A stretch of 32,415 nucleotides of DNA from NCBI RefSeq assembly GCF_000472665.1, contig NZ_AXAC01000044.1:1-32415 (forward strand). Direction: 5' to 3'. The notes under the pieces were generated by a model, which ran no database searches, had not been told where the DNA came from, and saw only the letters and a program-made list of their open reading frames with translations. Of the stretch, positions 196 to 7,358 are shown piece after piece. How positions within the stretch are numbered: the first letter of the stretch is position 1; every line of letters starts with the position of its first letter. The position numbers and the translations under genes were made by a program. Source of the DNA: Acetobacterium malicum subsp. dehalogenans DSM 11527. GTDB lineage: Bacteria > Bacillota > Clostridia > Eubacteriales > Eubacteriaceae.

Positions 196-295
196 TTCGG
201 TGAGAGATTTCAGGAGCCGTGTACGGCAAACGTAAGCACGGTTCTGTGAGAGCAAAGAAATCCGGACTAATTACCCGGATTTCTAGCTACTCGAT
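1..295 (+). mobile_element. Group II intron, 3' end (maturase tail plus domains V and VI)
   Basis: Only the 3' part of the intron lies in the window. After the maturase stop at 193-195, a domain V-like hairpin spans 214-244: GAGCCGTG pairs with CACGGTTC around a small upper stem. Domain VI follows. GAGAGC (248-253) pairs with GCT/CTC (286-288, 290-292), leaving A289 as a bulged branch-point adenosine, and an inner perfect stem pairs 256-265 with 275-284. A289 is the seventh base from a CGAT end at 295, the usual distance to a group II 3' splice site, so I place the intron end at about 295. The intron is antisense to the neighbouring EAL gene and supplies that gene's last codons. The structural reading is direct; the exact 3' boundary is inference. 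Confidence 0.85.
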
Positions 296-3113
296 ATTTT
301 TCCATAAAAGCCAGCAGCTCATCTTCGCCAAGCGGTTTGGCGTAGTAAAAGCCCTGGGCGATATGGCAATTATTTTTGAGTAAAAAGTCAATCTGTTCTG
401 GGGTTTCCACCCCTTCGGCGATGACCTGAAGATTGAAATTGCCAGCCAGTTCAATGATGACCTTGGCAATGGTGCCGTTGTCGTAATGGGGGATCCCTTT
501 AATAAAGGAACGGTCGATTTTGATCTTATCTACGGCAAATTTTTTCAGGTAGCTCAGAGAGGAATAACCTGTTCCAAAATCGTCGATGGAGACTTGGATC
601 CCCATCCCGTGGAATTCACTGAGGATTGATTCACATTCATCCTCATTGTCCATCAGAATCCCTTCAGTGATTTCCAGCTCCAATAGCTCTGGCGGAAGCT
701 TGGTTCGGGTCAAAATGGATTGGATCAATTCCCCGATATACGGGGCCTTAAACTGAAGCATCGACAGATTAACTGCAATCGGGGTTTGATAACCTCGAGC
801 GGCCAGTTTATTTCCGAATTCGCAGGCATTCTCCAGCACCCATTCACCAAGGGGGATAATCAGATTTGATTCTTCGGCAATGGGAATAAAACTTCCCGGA
901 GGAACCATACCATTGGGACTGTTCCAACGGATTAAAGCCTCCAGGCCAATGATTTGATTGGTGGCCATATCCACCTGGGGTTGGTAGTGGAGAATAAACT
1001 CCTGGTTGCTCAGGGCATTTCGCAGTTTGTTTTGCATCTCATATTTTTGAATTGAGAGGCTATTAATTTCCTTGTCATAGAATTCAAAACGGCGGCCCTT
1101 ATTGGCTTTGACATTGTTCAGGGCTGAAGCGGCAGTTTTTAGAAGTTTAGCATAATGGTTGGCATCACTGGGGTAGAGACTAATCCCGATGCTGACGTCA
1201 ATGATAAGTTCTTCATCATTAATGGCGATTTGTCTTTCCAGCTCTTTGCTTAAGTCCAGAATATACTCATATAAATCTTCATTGGAAGAAACATGGGCTT
1301 TCAGGATGCCAAACTCGTCATTACCCAAACGGGCCAGCACATCCTGGTCGCTGATCAAATTTTTTAGCCGATTGGCCAGGGCAATCAGAACCTTATTGCC
1401 GAAATCAAAGCCTTTTGCTTCATTGATAATTCTGAAATTATCAATGTTGATCAGGATCAGGGCATGGCTGGAAGCATTGTCGGTGTCCCCACTGATGAGT
1501 TCCACTCCCGATTCATCCAAAAACACCTTGTTGTTCAGTTTGGTCAGATGATCAAAATATTTCAGATAGTAAATATCTTTTTCGATTTGCTTATGGGCCG
1601 TGAGATTGGTGATGTTTCCGATATAATAATCAGCACCTCCATTTTGAACCTTACTGATCCGCAAAAAAAGAAACAGGGTTTCTGCGGAATTCTGAGCATA
1701 TTCAATTTCACCAGACCAGACCGGATTCATTTGCAGGCTGTCAATTAATGGTTGATCGATGAGGATATTATTCTCAGACAAGTTCAGCGCCGGGATTTCG
1801 GCTCCTGGGATACCGATAATTCTGGAAAAGGCGGCGTTGTGGTAGATACAGAAAAAATCGTCATTCAGGATAAAGATACCTTCGTCAGTACCGGACAGTA
1901 ATTCCAGGATCATTTCCAGCTGGGATTGGACAACCCGGCGTTTGTTAATTTCTTCGTTGAGAGCCTCATTGTTGGTTTGGACTTCTTCAATGTATTGGGT
2001 GATCCGGTGACTCATCATTTTCAGCCCCCGGGATAAAATACCGATCTCATCCTCACGACTATAAAGGTCATCTGGCAGATTGATTTCCTGATCTTCCTGG
2101 CTGAAGGTTTCGACCGAGTCTGAAATGGTCACAATCGGTTCGGAAATAAGCCGGGTCATCCGTTTGATAAACAGAGCGATCAAAAAAAGCAGCGCCAGTG
2201 AAATAAAGAAAAGGCTGAAAATAAATTGATTTAGCGGGGCCAGGACTTCGGAACGGGGGATTACGGTGGCCACAATCCAGTTGGATGACTGGGTGGGCAC
2301 ATAGGCAATATATTTGGCATTATTTGCCAGACTGTATTCAATGACGCCGCTGTTACCCGAGGTGATCTGAGTCATATAGGGTTCGAGATAGGCATAGGGG
2401 TCGGTTTGATCGACAGCTGAAACCTGGCGATCATCAGGATGGTAAAAAATACTGCCATCTTTATTAATTAATAGGGTATAGCCATTGTTGCCGACCTTGT
2501 AGGCATCCATCAGTTTCGAAATATCAGAAACCTGTAAATCAATGCCCATGGCGCCAATCACGTTGTTATTTTTTAGGATTGGGGTGGTGATGGAAACGAC
2601 CATCTTTTCGGTGACAATATCAATATAAGGACTGGTGACCGTTACGCCCCGGGATTTTAAGGTTTCAATATACCAGAGTCGTTTGTTCAGATCATAATCT
2701 GGTTTGGGATCAAACTCGGGGGTCGAAGAAATCAGATCGTTGGACTTGGTGATGCCGAGGTAAGCCAGCGAAATATTCGGATCGGAAGCCTTAATCGCCT
2801 GGAGTTCCTGGGTTATCACATTGAAAAGCGGGTGCTGACGTTTTTCCTCCCGGGTATTGAGGCCTTCGGTAACAGCCTGATAATCCTGGTTGGTTTTCAT
2901 CTGTTCGACGATGACAACATTTTTTTCAATAAACTTGTCAATTTCGGTGGCAATCTGCTGCGCATCCTGGGATAAGGCTTCCTTACTGTTGGCCTCAAAA
3001 AAATCACTCAGCATTTGGATGGAAATGATTCCATAAACGGCAAAGGCGACAAAAATAAATCCGATTACAATTGTTCCGATCCGTCGGATCAGGCTTTTTT
3101 TAAACCACTGCAC
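267..3113 (-). CDS. dCache-HAMP-PAS-GGDEF-EAL c-di-GMP phosphodiesterase, C-terminus altered by intron
   Basis: This is a 948-residue membrane signalling protein. Transmembrane helix 1 is about residues 13-36, an extracellular double Cache-like sensor about 37-290, helix 2 about 296-316, HAMP about 317-370, a coiled coil about 370-400, PAS about 400-510, GGDEF about 515-680 and EAL about 700-940. The EAL domain keeps its expected catalytic residues: E725 (EAL), N782, E814, D844-D845 in DDFGTGYSS, K865, E900 and Q920. It should hydrolyse c-di-GMP. The GGDEF domain is degenerate (GNDEF at 597-601, N556 and N573 replacing metal- and nucleotide-contacting aspartates), so cyclase activity is doubtful and it may be a regulatory domain. 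The start is GTG with AAAGGATGG seven or eight bases upstream. Residues 941-948 and the TAG stop are intron sequence (Y940 spans the junction); the native end lies on the far side of the intron. The ligand of the Cache domain cannot be told. Confidence 0.9.
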   Translation of the reverse strand: MQWFKKSLIRRIGTIVIGFIFVAFAVYGIISIQMLSDFFEANSKEALSQDAQQIATEIDKFIEKNVVIVEQMKTNQDYQAVTEGLNTREEKRQHPLFNVITQELQAIKASDPNISLAYLGITKSNDLISSTPEFDPKPDYDLNKRLWYIETLKSRGVTVTSPYIDIVTEKMVVSITTPILKNNNVIGAMGIDLQVSDISKLMDAYKVGNNGYTLLINKDGSIFYHPDDRQVSAVDQTDPYAYLEPYMTQITSGNSGVIEYSLANNAKYIAYVPTQSSNWIVATVIPRSEVLAPLNQFIFSLFFISLALLFLIALFIKRMTRLISEPIVTISDSVETFSQEDQEINLPDDLYSREDEIGILSRGLKMMSHRITQYIEEVQTNNEALNEEINKRRVVQSQLEMILELLSGTDEGIFILNDDFFCIYHNAAFSRIIGIPGAEIPALNLSENNILIDQPLIDSLQMNPVWSGEIEYAQNSAETLFLFLRISKVQNGGADYYIGNITNLTAHKQIEKDIYYLKYFDHLTKLNNKVFLDESGVELISGDTDNASSHALILINIDNFRIINEAKGFDFGNKVLIALANRLKNLISDQDVLARLGNDEFGILKAHVSSNEDLYEYILDLSKELERQIAINDEELIIDVSIGISLYPSDANHYAKLLKTAASALNNVKANKGRRFEFYDKEINSLSIQKYEMQNKLRNALSNQEFILHYQPQVDMATNQIIGLEALIRWNSPNGMVPPGSFIPIAEESNLIIPLGEWVLENACEFGNKLAARGYQTPIAVNLSMLQFKAPYIGELIQSILTRTKLPPELLELEITEGILMDNEDECESILSEFHGMGIQVSIDDFGTGYSSLSYLKKFAVDKIKIDRSFIKGIPHYDNGTIAKVIIELAGNFNLQVIAEGVETPEQIDFLLKNNCHIAQGFYYAKPLGEDELLAFMEKYRVARNPGN

Positions 3114-3233: not shown

Positions 3234-3263
3234 TTGACAGGAATATATCAATTATGTTAAAGT
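3234..3263 (+). promoter_or_regulatory. Candidate sigma-A promoter of the riboflavin operon
   Basis: A perfect TTGACA -35 (3234-3239) is followed 18 bases later by TAAAGT (3258-3263), with a TG one base before the -10. A start near 3270 would put the FMN aptamer almost at the 5' end of the transcript. The -10 is a weak match, so its exact placement is uncertain. Confidence 0.5.
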
Positions 3264-3282
3264 TTAATCAATTAAATATGAA

Positions 3283-3389
3283 GTCTTCAGGGCAGGGATA
3301 GTTTCCCTACCGGTGGTATAGCCCACGAGCCGCAAGGTATGATTCGGTGTAATTCCGAGGCCGACAGTTAAAGTCTGGATGAAAGAAGA
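3283..3389 (+). ncRNA. FMN riboswitch (RFN element)
   Basis: The conserved RFN segments appear in order: CAGGGCAGGG near 3288-3297, CCCTACCGGTGG, AGCCCACGAGC, GATTCGGTGTAATTCCGAGG, CCGACAGTTAAAGTCTGGAT and GAAAGAAGA at the end. TCTTC (3284-3288) pairs with GAAGA (3385-3389) as the closing stem P1. The aptamer binds FMN and, in Firmicute riboflavin operons, turns off transcription when FMN is plentiful. It lies upstream of ribD with terminator hairpins between, as expected for transcription attenuation. Confidence 0.97.
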
Positions 3390-3433
3390 TAATAAAGTTT
3401 TGCATGTTGTTTTGCATATGTCTTTGTTTATTT

Positions 3434-3468
3434 AGCTCTGAAATGGTAATCATTTCAGAGCTTTTTTT
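3434..3468 (+). terminator. Intrinsic terminator 1 of the FMN riboswitch
   Basis: A perfect 12-bp stem (AGCTCTGAAATG, 3434-3445, with its complement 3451-3462) has a 5-base loop and ends in a run of seven T. It follows the aptamer by 44 bases and is the expected expression platform. FMN binding should favour this hairpin and stop transcription before ribD. Confidence 0.9.
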
Positions 3469-3518
3469 ATAACAAGGAAACATTTATACAAAGTGATGTA
3501 GCCTGCAAATAAACCCGT

Positions 3519-3554
3519 TGCCCTGAATAAATGTTCAGGGCATTTTTGTTTTTT
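3519..3554 (+). terminator. Second terminator hairpin in the riboflavin leader
   Basis: TGCCCTGAA (3519-3527) pairs perfectly with TTCAGGGCA (3534-3542) around a 6-base loop. It is followed by TTTTTG and TTTTTT and ends just before the ribD ribosome binding site. The right arm, TTCAGGGCA, also occurs at 3286-3294 inside the 5' side of the FMN aptamer, so the left arm could pair with the aptamer instead. Whether this is a second control point or a fail-safe terminator is unknown. Confidence 0.8.
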
Positions 3555-3569
3555 GAGAGAGGAGAACGT

Positions 3570-4658
3570 GTGGAAAATCATCAAAAATATATGGATCTGG
3601 CCATCGACCTGGCGCAAAAAGGCCGCGGCCAGGTAAATCCGAATCCCCTGGTGGGAGCGGTGATCGTTAAAGATGATGTGATCATCGGCCGCGGCTATCA
3701 CGAAAAATATGGCGGGCCTCATGCCGAACGCCAGGCCCTGGCGGCCTGCACCCAGTCGGCGGCCGGGGCAACCCTGTATGTGACGTTGGAATCCTGCTGT
3801 CATCATGGCAAAACGCCGCCATGTACCGAGGCTATTATTGACAATAAAATCAGCCGGGTGGTCATTGGGTCTACCGATCCCAATCCGCTGGTCAGTGGCA
3901 AGGGGATTGAGATCCTCAGACAGCAGGGGATCACGGTGATAACCGGGGTGCGGGAAGAGGCGTGTCAGGAACTAAACACCGTTTTTTTTCACTATATCAA
4001 AACGAAAACCCCCTACGTGTTAATGAAATACGCCATGACCCTGGATGGTAAAATTGCCACCCATACTGGAAAATCGAAGTGGATTACCGGGGCAGCGGCC
4101 AGGCAGGCGGTCCATCAGACCCGCAGTGAAGTTGCCGGAATTATGGTCGGGGTCAACACTGTTTTACAGGACGATCCCCTACTGACCTGCCGGATTGAGG
4201 ATGGCAAAAACCCCAGCCGAATTATCTGCGATACCCATTTACGGACCCCGCTGACAGCACAGGTCGTGGCAACGGCCCGGAAAATACCAACCTATCTGGC
4301 CACCTGCTCCCGGGATCAGCATAAAATAAAGCGGTTTGAAATAATGGGCTGCAAAATTTTAGCTGTTCCGCCAGCCGGGGATCATCTTAATCTCCAGGAA
4401 TTGATGGTGCAATTAGGGCAGCAAGGGATTGACAGTATTCTGCTGGAAGGGGGCGGCACCCTGAATTTTAGTGCTTTAAAAAGCGGCATTGTCAATCAGC
4501 TGCAGGTTTATCTGGCTCCTAAGATATTTGGCGGCGCGGCGGCCAAAACTCCGGTGGAAGGCCCGGGGCTGGAAGATCCAGCGGAGGCCTTCCAGTTTAC
4601 GGACCGAAAAATAAAAAGTTTCGGGGCGGATATCTGCCTCGAATATGTGAAGAGGTAA
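3570..4658 (+). CDS. ribD: Bifunctional diaminohydroxyphosphoribosylaminopyrimidine deaminase / 5-amino-6-ribosylaminouracil reductase
   Basis: RibD carries out the second and third steps of riboflavin synthesis, deaminating the pyrimidine made from GTP and then reducing the ribosyl group with NADPH. The N-terminal cytidine-deaminase-like domain has HAE at 51-53, and C76 and C85 (in ESC...PPC) as the other zinc ligands. The reductase domain starts near residue 147, with MKYAMTLDGKIA. I choose GTG at 3570 because AGGAG sits five bases upstream and the protein then begins as RibD proteins do; an earlier in-frame start would lie inside the second terminator hairpin. This gives 362 residues, normal for the family. 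It is the first gene of the operon, four bases before ribE. Confidence 0.96.
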   Translation: MENHQKYMDLAIDLAQKGRGQVNPNPLVGAVIVKDDVIIGRGYHEKYGGPHAERQALAACTQSAAGATLYVTLESCCHHGKTPPCTEAIIDNKISRVVIGSTDPNPLVSGKGIEILRQQGITVITGVREEACQELNTVFFHYIKTKTPYVLMKYAMTLDGKIATHTGKSKWITGAAARQAVHQTRSEVAGIMVGVNTVLQDDPLLTCRIEDGKNPSRIICDTHLRTPLTAQVVATARKIPTYLATCSRDQHKIKRFEIMGCKILAVPPAGDHLNLQELMVQLGQQGIDSILLEGGGTLNFSALKSGIVNQLQVYLAPKIFGGAAAKTPVEGPGLEDPAEAFQFTDRKIKSFGADICLEYVKR

Positions 4659-4662
4659 AGAC

Positions 4663-5325
4663 ATGTTTACAGGAATTGTCGAAGAAATTGGCAAAATCAC
4701 GGCGGTCATTAAGGGGCAACGGTCTTCCCAGCTATGGGTTTCGGGTGCGGTCATCATGGATGATTTAAAACTGGGCGACAGCGTGGCGGTGAATGGGGTG
4801 TGTCTGACGGTGTCCCAGCTCCGCGGCAATAAGTGGATGGCTGACGTCATGAGTGAAACCCTGAACCGCAGCAATCTGGGCGATCTAAAAGGCGGCTCGG
4901 TAGTCAATCTGGAACGGGCGATGCCCGCCATTGGCCGTTTCGGAGGACATATCGTGTCCGGCCATATTGACGGAACCGGTCACATTGTTCAAATCAGCAA
5001 AGATGATAATGCGGTGATCTTTGAGATTAAGGCTGCGCCGAAAATACTCCGATACATCATCGAAAAAGGCTCCATTGCCATTGATGGCATCAGCTTAACG
5101 GTGACTGAAATAACCGCCGCCAGCTTTAAGGTGTCCATCATTCCCCATACCGTTAAGCAGACGATCCTGGGCATCAAGCAACCCGGCGATCCGGTCAATC
5201 TGGAAAACGACCTGGTCGGCAAATATATCGAAAAGCTGTTGATGAACCCAGCGCCCAAAACAGACCACCACCCGGAAAAGCCCAGTGGGTTGACCATTGA
5301 TTTTCTGACTGAGGCCGGGTTTTAA
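4663..5325 (+). CDS. ribE: Riboflavin synthase, alpha chain
   Basis: This 220-residue protein disproportionates two 6,7-dimethyl-8-ribityllumazine molecules into riboflavin and the pyrimidine precursor. It starts with the family signature MFTGIVEEIGK and shows the two tandem lumazine-binding beta-barrel repeats: repeat 1 about 1-95, repeat 2 about 97-195, with GHIVSGHIDGTG at the start of the second. It lies four bases after ribD and is clearly co-transcribed. The length is typical for the trimeric alpha-type enzyme. In some organisms the same protein is called RibC. Confidence 0.96.
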   Translation: MFTGIVEEIGKITAVIKGQRSSQLWVSGAVIMDDLKLGDSVAVNGVCLTVSQLRGNKWMADVMSETLNRSNLGDLKGGSVVNLERAMPAIGRFGGHIVSGHIDGTGHIVQISKDDNAVIFEIKAAPKILRYIIEKGSIAIDGISLTVTEITAASFKVSIIPHTVKQTILGIKQPGDPVNLENDLVGKYIEKLLMNPAPKTDHHPEKPSGLTIDFLTEAGF

Positions 5326-5363
5326 AATGAAATATTATTGAAAAACGTGAGCTAGTCAAAAGG

Positions 5364-5480
5364 AATAACTTAGTACCGACAATTGTTAGATCATGTTGTA
5401 TGCATCAAGGCGGACACGGCGTAGCCTGTCCGAGCTTGCAGCATACAACAGATTAACAATTGATCGGTACGGTAGTGTTT
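5364..5480. repeat. Palindromic repeat element, copy 1 (between ribE and ribBA)
   Basis: The core, 5373-5470, is a long imperfect palindrome. It opens with GTACCGACAATTGTTA and closes with the near-complement ending in CGGTAC; a GC-rich inner hairpin (CGGACA...TGTCCG) sits in the centre. The reverse complement of this element is nearly the same as 6728-6846, and the similarity runs beyond the core into AATAACTTA on the left and GGTAGTGTTT on the right. It has no coding capacity. It resembles a MITE or a REP-type intergenic repeat. Confidence 0.85.
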
Positions 5481-5516
5481 GGTAAAACTTTACAATTCAG
5501 AATAAGAGAGGGTACT

Positions 5517-6719
5517 ATGTTTAAATTTAATACCATTGAAGAAGCACTGGAAGATTTACGAGCCGGTAAAATTATCATCGTGACCGATGATGATGACCGC
5601 GAAAACGAGGGCGATTTTGTCTGTGCAGCTGAATTTGCCACCACCGAAAACGTCAATTTTATGGCCGTCTATGGCAAAGGGTTGATCTGCATGCCGATGA
5701 GCGAAAAATTGGTCAAAAAATTAGCCGTTCCCCAAATGGTGACGGATAACACCGACAATCATTGCACCGCTTTTACCGTGTCGATCGACCACGTCGATAC
5801 CACCACTGGCATTTCCGCCGCCGAACGTTCGGTTACCGCTATCAAGTGCGTTGACGAGAATGCCAGACCAGAAGATTTCCGCCGGCCCGGCCATATGTTT
5901 CCCCTGGTGGCCCGGGAAAACGGGGTGTTGGAACGAAACGGTCATACCGAGGCCACTGTTGATCTGGTCAAATTGGCCGGGTTGAAAGAATGCGGTCTGT
6001 GCTGCGAAATCATGCGGGAAGATGGTACCATGATGCGGACACCGGAACTGATTGAATTTGCCCAGACCCATCAGATGAAATTTATCACCATCAAGGATCT
6101 CCAGGATTATCGCAAACAAAATGAAAAACTGGTCGATTGTGTCACGATCACTAAAATGCCGACTAAATACGGTGAGTTTATGGCCTATGGTTATGTCAAT
6201 AAGCTTAATGGGGAACATCATGTGGCGCTGGTTAAGGGCGATGTGAGCGGAGCTAGTCCGGTGCTGTGTCGGGTTCATTCTGAATGCTTAACCGGCGATG
6301 CCTTTGGTTCGATCCGCTGTGATTGCGGCGATCAGTTTGGGGCAGCGATGACCGCCATTGAAAAAGAAGGTCGGGGGGTACTGCTCTACATGCGTCAGGA
6401 AGGACGGGGCATTGGTCTGATTAACAAATTAAAAGCTTATGCGCTTCAGGATATGGGCATGGATACGGTCCAGGCCAATATTGAACTGGGCTTCCCGGAA
6501 GACCTGCGGGAATACTATATTGGGGCCCAGATTTTAAGCGACCTGGGCATAAAAAAACTCCGACTGCTAACCAACAACCCTAAGAAAATGGATGGTCTGT
6601 CAGAATTCGGGCTGGAAATGGTGGAGCGGGTTCCCATTCAAATGGAAGCATCCAGCCACGATCTGTTTTATTTGAAAACCAAGCAGGAAAAAATGGGCCA
6701 TATTTTAAATTATAACTAA
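5517..6719 (+). CDS. ribBA: Bifunctional 3,4-dihydroxy-2-butanone-4-phosphate synthase / GTP cyclohydrolase II
   Basis: RibBA makes both entry intermediates of riboflavin: the four-carbon unit from ribulose 5-phosphate and the pyrimidine from GTP. The N-terminal domain (about 1-200) has the acidic active-site stretch [10 protein letters not shown] at 24-33 and HTEATVDL at 143-150. The C-terminal domain (about 205-400) has the zinc site C257, C268, C270 and the motif [10 protein letters not shown]. The start is ATG 5517, preceded by GAGAGGG; a longer in-frame reading upstream would begin inside the palindromic repeat and lacks a binding site. At 400 residues the fusion is full length. The gene sits between two inverted copies of that repeat, but its place in the operon is the usual one. 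Confidence 0.96.
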
Positions 6720-6727
6720 AACCTAGT

Positions 6728-6846
6728 GATAAACTGCCGTACCGACCAATTGTTAATCTGTTGTTTGCCGCGGACTCGGACAGGCTTGGGCCGTGTCCGC
6801 TCTGATGCAAACAACATGATGTAACAATTGTCGGTACTAGGTTATC
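6728..6846. repeat. Palindromic repeat element, copy 2 (between ribBA and ribH), inverted relative to copy 1
   Basis: The core, 6739-6837, opens with GTACCGACCAATTGTTA and closes with TAACAATTGTCGGTAC. Its terminal inverted repeats extend outwards to GATAAACTGCC on the left and GGTTATC on the right. The reverse complement matches copy 1 with few differences, including the central CGGACAGG/GTGTCCG hairpin. The pair therefore bounds ribBA as a 1.4-kb inverted repeat. In RNA each copy would fold into a long hairpin. Confidence 0.85.
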
Positions 6847-6890
6847 GTTTTGAAAGTTAGATAACAAAAATTATTATAGAGGAGAAGACG

Positions 6891-7358
6891 ATGAATGTAT
6901 ATGAAGGTAAGTTAGTATCAAAGGGAATTAAAGTGGGGATTGTGGTGGCGCGGTTCAATGAGTTTATTGGGTCGAAGCTGCTTGGCGGAGCGATTGATGG
7001 CTTGAAGCGTCATGATGTCAAGGAAGAGGACATTGATGTGGCCTGGGTACCGGGGGCCTTTGAAATTCCCTTGATTGCGGCCAAAATGGCCAAGCTGGGA
7101 AAATATGATGCCGTTATTTGTCTGGGGGCCGTGATCCGCGGTTCCACGACTCATTATGATTATGTCTGCAGTGAAGTGTCAAAGGGTGTCGCCCATGTCT
7201 CCCTGCAGTCAGAAATACCAGTGATCTTCGGGGTGCTGACCACCGAAAACATTGAACAGGCGATTGAACGGGCCGGAACCAAAGCCGGCAATAAAGGCTA
7301 CGACTGTGCCCTGACGGCCATTGAAATGGTCAATTTAATCAATGAAATAGCAAATTAG
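6891..7358 (+). CDS. ribH: 6,7-dimethyl-8-ribityllumazine synthase
   Basis: RibH joins the butanone phosphate made by RibBA to the ribitylaminouracil made by RibD and gives the lumazine substrate of riboflavin synthase. The 155-residue protein has the usual landmarks: ARFNEFI near the N-terminus, [25 protein letters not shown] (the phosphate-binding and catalytic region) and an alpha-helical C-terminus. AGAGGAG lies seven bases before the ATG. It is the last gene of the operon; a long hairpin follows. The family assembles into 60-subunit shells or pentamers; which form occurs here cannot be told. Confidence 0.96.

Follow-up and report, generated by a model that had tools for sequence, protein, structure and literature searches.

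In the FMN riboswitch of the Bacillus subtilis ribD type, an RFN element upstream of ribD is followed by one terminator, and the customary picture of a transcriptional riboswitch has one aptamer taking one decision. The closest described system with two terminators seems to be the Bc1 c-di-GMP-I riboswitch of the Bacillus cereus group, reported to combine one aptamer with a long leader in which 28 bp separate two intrinsic terminators; its authors call such a pair within a single platform rarely seen (PMC11218506). For FMN switches, kinetic control has been described (PMC7573352, PMC12288461), and in A. bakii the starts of two FMN riboswitches have been mapped (PMC6239172). In the literature searched, Bc1 was the only switch found with one aptamer and two terminators, subscription papers lying outside its scope, and an FMN switch built in this way was not encountered there; the classic RFN surveys, which may mention one, were outside that scope as well.

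Here we analyze a window of 32,415 nucleotides, i.e., the whole stretch of DNA studied, from Acetobacterium malicum subsp. dehalogenans DSM 11527, in which an earlier note had pointed to an FMN riboswitch leader upstream of ribD. Compared with the B. subtilis ribD type, this leader carries two terminators, both complementary to the switching strand, instead of one.

Results

The Leader and the rib Operon

The features of the locus are collected in Table 1. The coordinates given in the earlier note are right. The RF00050 match lies above the gathering score of 66.2 and ribD-ribE-ribBA-ribH are encoded 3' of it, so that covariance model and riboflavin genes both identify an FMN riboswitch. An Rfam scan of the whole window at the gathering threshold gave one aptamer only and no second one in the leader, as a tandem riboswitch would have; the other two matches are a 5S rRNA and a piece of a group II intron. 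The latter (212-295) matches the end of such introns with 45.4 bits, just above the gathering score of 40. A 948-aa c-di-GMP protein of the GGDEF/EAL type is encoded divergently on the minus strand (267-3113), immediately upstream of the promoter of the riboswitch. The promoter agrees with the consensus at 10/12 positions in a consensus scan and its position suits the leader, but it is weak when taken alone, because five such sites occur in the 701-base region where 2.3 are expected.

As had been claimed, a second complete terminator lies ahead of the ribosome binding site of ribD, its T tract (3543-3554) being interrupted by one G. Within the operon, the true start of ribBA is probably 3' of 5460, because its family matches do not start before residue 18. 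In the gaps 5326-5459 and 6720-6890, no further gated terminators of this type were seen by eye; a palindromic repeat is present there. It is a near-perfect palindrome of about 105 nt with a folding energy of -58 kcal/mol (z -10.9), and each of the two long gaps of the rib operon is filled by a copy (5370-5474 and 6737-6839). The repeat is MITE-like; this genome has at least 41 matches to it, and matches are also present in 12 of the 21 genomes searched, all within one of 7 genera.

Table 1. Features of the FMN riboswitch leader and the rib operon in the window.
Feature	Positions	Strand	Remarks
Likely promoter	3234-3263	+	TTGACA, 18-nt spacer, TAAAGT; TG ahead of second hexamer
FMN riboswitch aptamer (RFN element)	3279-3394	+	RF00050, 97.5 bits, E 1.3e-21, full model 1-138
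P1 5' strand	3283-3288	+	Partner 3385-3390; 6 pairs; stem agrees with Rfam alignment
Switching strand TTCAGGGCA (P1 5' end and J1/2)	3286-3294	+	Predicted antiterminator strand for both terminators
Terminator T1	3434-3469	+	Stem 3434-3462 (13 pairs), T tract 3463-3469; dG -16.9
Terminator T2	3519-3554	+	Stem 3519-3542 (10 pairs); dG -15.2
Ribosome binding site of ribD	3560-3564	+	AGGAG, read from bases
ribD	3570-4658	+	GTG start; ORF list; TIGR00326, 372.6 bits
ribE, riboflavin synthase	4663-5325	+	ORF list and family matches
ribBA	5460-6719	+	ORF as listed and family matches
ribH, lumazine synthase	6891-7358	+	ORF list and family matches

One Aptamer Strand and Two Terminator Arms

The bases confirm that the right arm of T2 (3534-3542) is identical to positions 3286-3294 of the aptamer, and the left arm of T2, TGCCCTGAA (3519-3527), pairs with the latter over 9/9 bp without any G-U. 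This sharing of a 9-mer is not special to T2, because the left arm of T1, GCTCTGAA (3435-3442), pairs with the same aptamer strand (3286-3293) over 8 bp including one G-U. The earlier note had taken T1 for the standard expression platform; the terminator is indeed present, but through this pairing it is not of a separate kind. The expression platform behind this single RF00050 aptamer thus contains two intrinsic terminators, and the left arms of both compete with the 5' strand of P1 and J1/2. Positions 3286-3294 correspond to the switching sequence with J1/2 outlined for the FMN riboswitch (PMC7573352). The shared 9-mer is thus the ordinary antitermination signature of an FMN switch, apparently employed twice by one aptamer.

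Comparison With Hairpins of the Same Genome

As background, we collected the 201 terminator-like hairpins with dG ≤ -8 that occur in the window and in 400 kb of this genome, sampled as 20 pieces of 20 kb. When these are sorted by the energy of the duplex between left arm and aptamer 5' strand, T2 (-16.1) takes the first and T1 (-12.4) the fifth place. When T2 was replaced in silico by each of 199 own-genome hairpins (T1 and T2 left out), the aptamer strand was captured with P ≥ 0.5 in 9/199 and with P ≥ 0.9 in 0/199 cases; the largest value was 0.75, compared with 0.93 for native T2. A chance origin of the complementarity between T2 and the aptamer is unlikely.

Close Relatives

Among 19 genomes of the genus (G000-G018), 17 contain a full ribD leader, whereas the leader of G005 ends at the contig end and G012 yielded a single leader, which belongs to the transporter type. 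An unguided finder reports two terminators in 15 of these 17 ribD leaders. It overlooks T2 of L034, which a motif-guided search recovers, and also long-loop hairpins such as a non-complementary one in L085 seen by eye. A lack of the second hairpin in close relatives, named in the earlier note as grounds for refuting its reading, was not encountered in general: with the motif-guided search T2 is found in register in 16/17 genus ribD leaders, the exception (L046 from G011) having a long hairpin with a CCCCTGAA arm and no clear T tract. In the genus g3, T2 with the arm TGCCTTGAA is present in 5/5 ribD leaders. The second hairpins of two g4 leaders (L081, L084) and of one from g9 (L091) are not complementary to the aptamer strand. 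In the ribD leader L037 (G008), the palindrome of the rib gaps apparently follows T1 and precedes the last terminator, where it interrupts or adjoins a copy of T2, with a partial T2-like hairpin 5' and a complete T2 3' of the repeat.

An arm asymmetry test, confined to cells where the two arms of T2 imply different bases, gave cases in which the left arm alone versus the right arm alone is compatible with the aptamer (17 vs. 0 in the genus, 3 vs. 0 in g3, 15 vs. 1 in others). We reject it as evidence, since the motif used for searching had itself restricted the left arm and since G-U rules are enough to favor changes of G-C pairs in the right arm; the register given to L181 and L179 in this test was wrong as well.

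Two Terminators in Leaders of Other Clostridia

The survey comprised 266 loci, 68 at family and 34 at order level and, among the matches listed, 80 named RibD and 84 at class level, the latter being the best-scoring among the matches listed plus 60 further regions in list order. No aptamer was found in 24 and no gene in 2 of them, which leaves 240 loci with both. Among the matches listed, at least two terminators occur in 54/106 ribD leaders (none in 6, one in 46, two in 52, three in 2) versus 2/134 other or unclassified FMN leaders (none in 24, one in 108, two in 2), the gene caller putting several RibD loci in the class 'other'. One of the latter two leaders, L189, is a misclassed RibD locus and in the other, L279, the first hairpin overlaps the aptamer end. 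If a strict gating rule is applied (run ≥ 7 with at most 2 G-U), at least two gated terminators are present in 27/106 ribD leaders and in 0/134 others, again among the matches listed. After identical entries had been collapsed, 222 leaders remained, and at least two terminators were counted in 49/98 ribD leaders among the matches listed. In these collapsed tandem ribD leaders, a duplex energy of ≤ -11 kcal/mol to the aptamer strand is reached by 42/49 last and 41/49 first terminators versus 27/248 flank hairpins (last terminators versus flank hairpins, Fisher p ~2e-25 with kinship between leaders ignored). Of the flank hairpins, 24/248 (9.7%) reach a run of 7 if up to 2 G-U are allowed. The spacer between T1 and T2 varies from 2 to 348 nt across the sample.

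Native folding of the two-terminator ribD leaders predicts capture of the aptamer strand with ≥ 0.5 at T2 in 46/52, at T1 in 40/52 and at both in 35/52; misfits with capture < 0.5 amount to 6/52 for T2 and 12/52 for T1. Leaders with predicted capture at both or at all three terminators are spread over seven families, coded f1, f4, f6, f22, f38, f52, and f54, and over named Clostridia that include Lacrimispora, Clostridium frigidicarnis, C. vincentii, and Peptostreptococcus anaerobius. One ribD leader (L146 from G061:C16, f4) possesses three successive terminators, all of them complementary to the aptamer strand, with capture of 0.70, 0.96, and 0.99. In four ribD leaders of f18 (L260, L269, L294, L317), T1 shows little or no complementarity to the aptamer strand. 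In two Monoglobus ribD leaders (L164, L165) the first terminator is little complementary as well; in L260, L269, L294, and L165, the second one is complementary despite the poorly matching first. Taken together, the sequence studied and its relatives suggest control of two successive terminators by one strand of the aptamer, and the arrangement recurs in other Clostridia.

Covariation and Differences Between T1 and T2

In first terminators, the base of the aptamer strand at position 4 and the opposing arm base occur as A/T (119), A/C (11), A/A (2), A/G (1), G/C (13), G/T (9), and G/A (1), and the arm base follows the aptamer base (Fisher p = 2.8e-7 for the four main cells, kinship ignored). 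Position 8 is looser, the aptamer C being opposite G in 90/130. For the 42 alignable last terminators, the corresponding counts are A/T 38, G/C 1, G/T 1, and A/C 2, and covariation at T2 is thin because the aptamer strand is strongly conserved. The G/C case, from C. vincentii (L181), combines the aptamer sequence TTCGGGGC with the T2 arm GCCTCGAA and represents one compensatory change; L146 retains a wobble, and L164 and L177 break the pair.

A CTC opposite aptamer positions 7 to 5 is found in 36/47 classifiable first terminators of tandem leaders and in 2/42 last ones, in 8/36 single ribD terminators and in 2/71 other leaders (2 first, 7 last, 7 single ribD and 29 other leaders being unclassifiable). 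The T of this CTC forms a G-U with the aptamer strand and is the recurrent wobble of T1. In 37 leaders with runs ≥ 7 at both terminators, the duplex of T2 is stronger than that of T1 in 29, equal in 2, and weaker in 6. This pattern fits a weak first contact that would be displaced by a strong second one, and common descent of T1 can account for part of it.

Ligand-Free Folding of the Growing Transcript

The strand hand-off and its energies are computed predictions, from equilibrium folding of growing transcripts with an energy model that operates without FMN, tertiary structure and kinetics. AT1 and AT2 denote the switching strand on the arm of T1 and of T2, respectively. In the ligand-free growing transcript, the strand is predicted on T1's arm with P 0.84 before T1 closes, and on T2's arm with P 0.93 before T2 closes, T1 being already closed. 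In constrained ensemble energies, AT1 amounts to -49.2 kcal/mol versus -43.4 for P1 once T1's arm is out. With T2's arm out (3531), the T1 hairpin plus AT2 has -79.2 versus -65.3 for AT1 and -70.5 kcal/mol for P1+T1, and is thus better than AT1 by 13.9 kcal/mol. As soon as a hairpin is complete, the ligand-free model prefers the terminator, for T1 (3463) by 9.0 kcal/mol (P1+T1 -59.6 vs. AT1 -50.6) and for T2 (3543) by 4.8 kcal/mol (P1+T1+T2 -85.6 vs. T1+AT2 -80.8). Since complete hairpins are preferred at ligand-free equilibrium, antitermination would have to be kinetic, in agreement with the general description of FMN switches (PMC7573352). Throughout the sample this preference is the rule: once the hairpin has closed, capture ≥ 0.5 is predicted for T1 in 0/43, for T2 in 8/52, for single ribD terminators in 2/43, and for other leaders in 8/101, and the same model predicts kinetic antitermination for nearly all leaders.

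Discussion

A complete terminator between switch and operon would silence the operon unless it is opened in some state, and apart from the aptamer strand no partner was found that would be able to open T2. We consider it likely that T2 is a second, FMN-gated checkpoint that is antiterminated by hand-off of the same aptamer strand. A second FMN-dependent decision through pairing of T2's arm with the aptamer was already proposed in the earlier note; comparison and energies favor it, and we infer control of T2 by FMN together with the gain that it would bring, less leak and a longer decision window. The leader would then be an FMN OFF riboswitch in which one aptamer is followed by two consecutive expression platforms. 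As long as FMN is absent, neither P1 nor J1/2 would be held and the strand UUCAGGGCA (3286-3294) would be free to pair elsewhere. It would be taken up first by the emerging left arm of T1, so that T1 could not close, and when the left arm of T2 emerges it would shift to this longer duplex of Watson-Crick pairs only. After the shift, T1 might close harmlessly behind the polymerase while T2 is held open, and with both terminators bypassed ribD-ribE-ribBA-ribH would be transcribed. If FMN is bound, the strand would be retained in the aptamer and both hairpins may close, T1 halting most polymerases and T2 catching those that slip past or bind FMN late.

T2 could also be a constitutive, FMN-blind attenuator that trims transcription by a fixed factor, only T1 responding to FMN and the likeness to the aptamer being a by-product of a duplication of T1. 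We regard this as unlikely, although the second terminator of Bc1 is described as staying folded regardless of ligand and masking T1 (PMC11218506), although the energy model prefers the completed T2 hairpin, and although some tandem leaders have a second hairpin without complementarity (6/52 below 0.5). Against it, the complementarity is kept in 42/49 last terminators, in contrast to 27/248 in the background, despite the varying spacer, and the arm types of T1 and T2 consistently differ (CTC in 36/47 versus 2/42), which simple duplication and drift do not predict. Another arrangement, in which the left arm of T1 keeps the aptamer strand and the left arm of T2 is held by the released right arm of T1, draws on the fact that, as read from the bases, most complementarity is common to these two arms. 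However, owing to the recurrent CTC of T1, an A of its right arm would face a C in the left arm of T2 and form a mismatch, and at 3531 AT1 with everything else free is worse than T1 plus AT2 by the 13.9 kcal/mol given above; this chain of arms seems very improbable to us.

Pure coincidence, which the earlier note had allowed for, is hardly credible. With GCC...GGC stems common among the terminators of this genome and a GC-rich aptamer strand, a 9-base match might be unremarkable; nearly a tenth of the flank hairpins reach the run of 7 described above, and the aptamer bases are conserved for other reasons. However, T2 ranks first of 201 in its own genome, none of the 199 swapped hairpins reaches 0.9, flank hairpins match the strand far less often than last terminators do, and the complementarity recurs in distant ribD leaders, a second terminator being rare in other leaders.

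Beyond a gated T2, we would give an even chance to a broader idea, namely that the strand is a reusable antiterminator passed from a weak, wobble-marked T1 to a strong T2 (and T3 in G061), forming a kinetic switch with multiple checkpoints that has been kept by clostridial riboflavin biosynthesis operons and not by the sampled transporter leaders. If the hand-off is real, one aptamer takes two or three serial decisions, leading to lower leak and a longer time for ligand binding, and a switch is annotated incompletely when the first terminator 3' of its aptamer alone is marked. The recurrent wobble of T1 would in that case be a tuned element, which is directly testable.

By every feature tested, this leader is an FMN riboswitch; it is set apart by one aptamer that serves two platforms. 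With tandem riboswitches (PMC9481103), for example the Na+/c-di-AMP gate (PMC9337991), it shares two terminators in series before one gene; unlike these, which are described as having two aptamers and two platforms (PMC9481103), one aptamer was found in this leader. Two tandem terminators in one leader are also known from rimP of Gammaproteobacteria, where there is no riboswitch and where the account describes a potential antiterminator for the upstream terminator only (PMC2965389). The leader resembles Bc1 in combining one aptamer and one long leader with two intrinsic terminators; in contrast to Bc1, whose T2 is described as intact irrespective of ligand (PMC11218506), the left arm of T2 pairs here with the aptamer and T2 is predicted to be gated.
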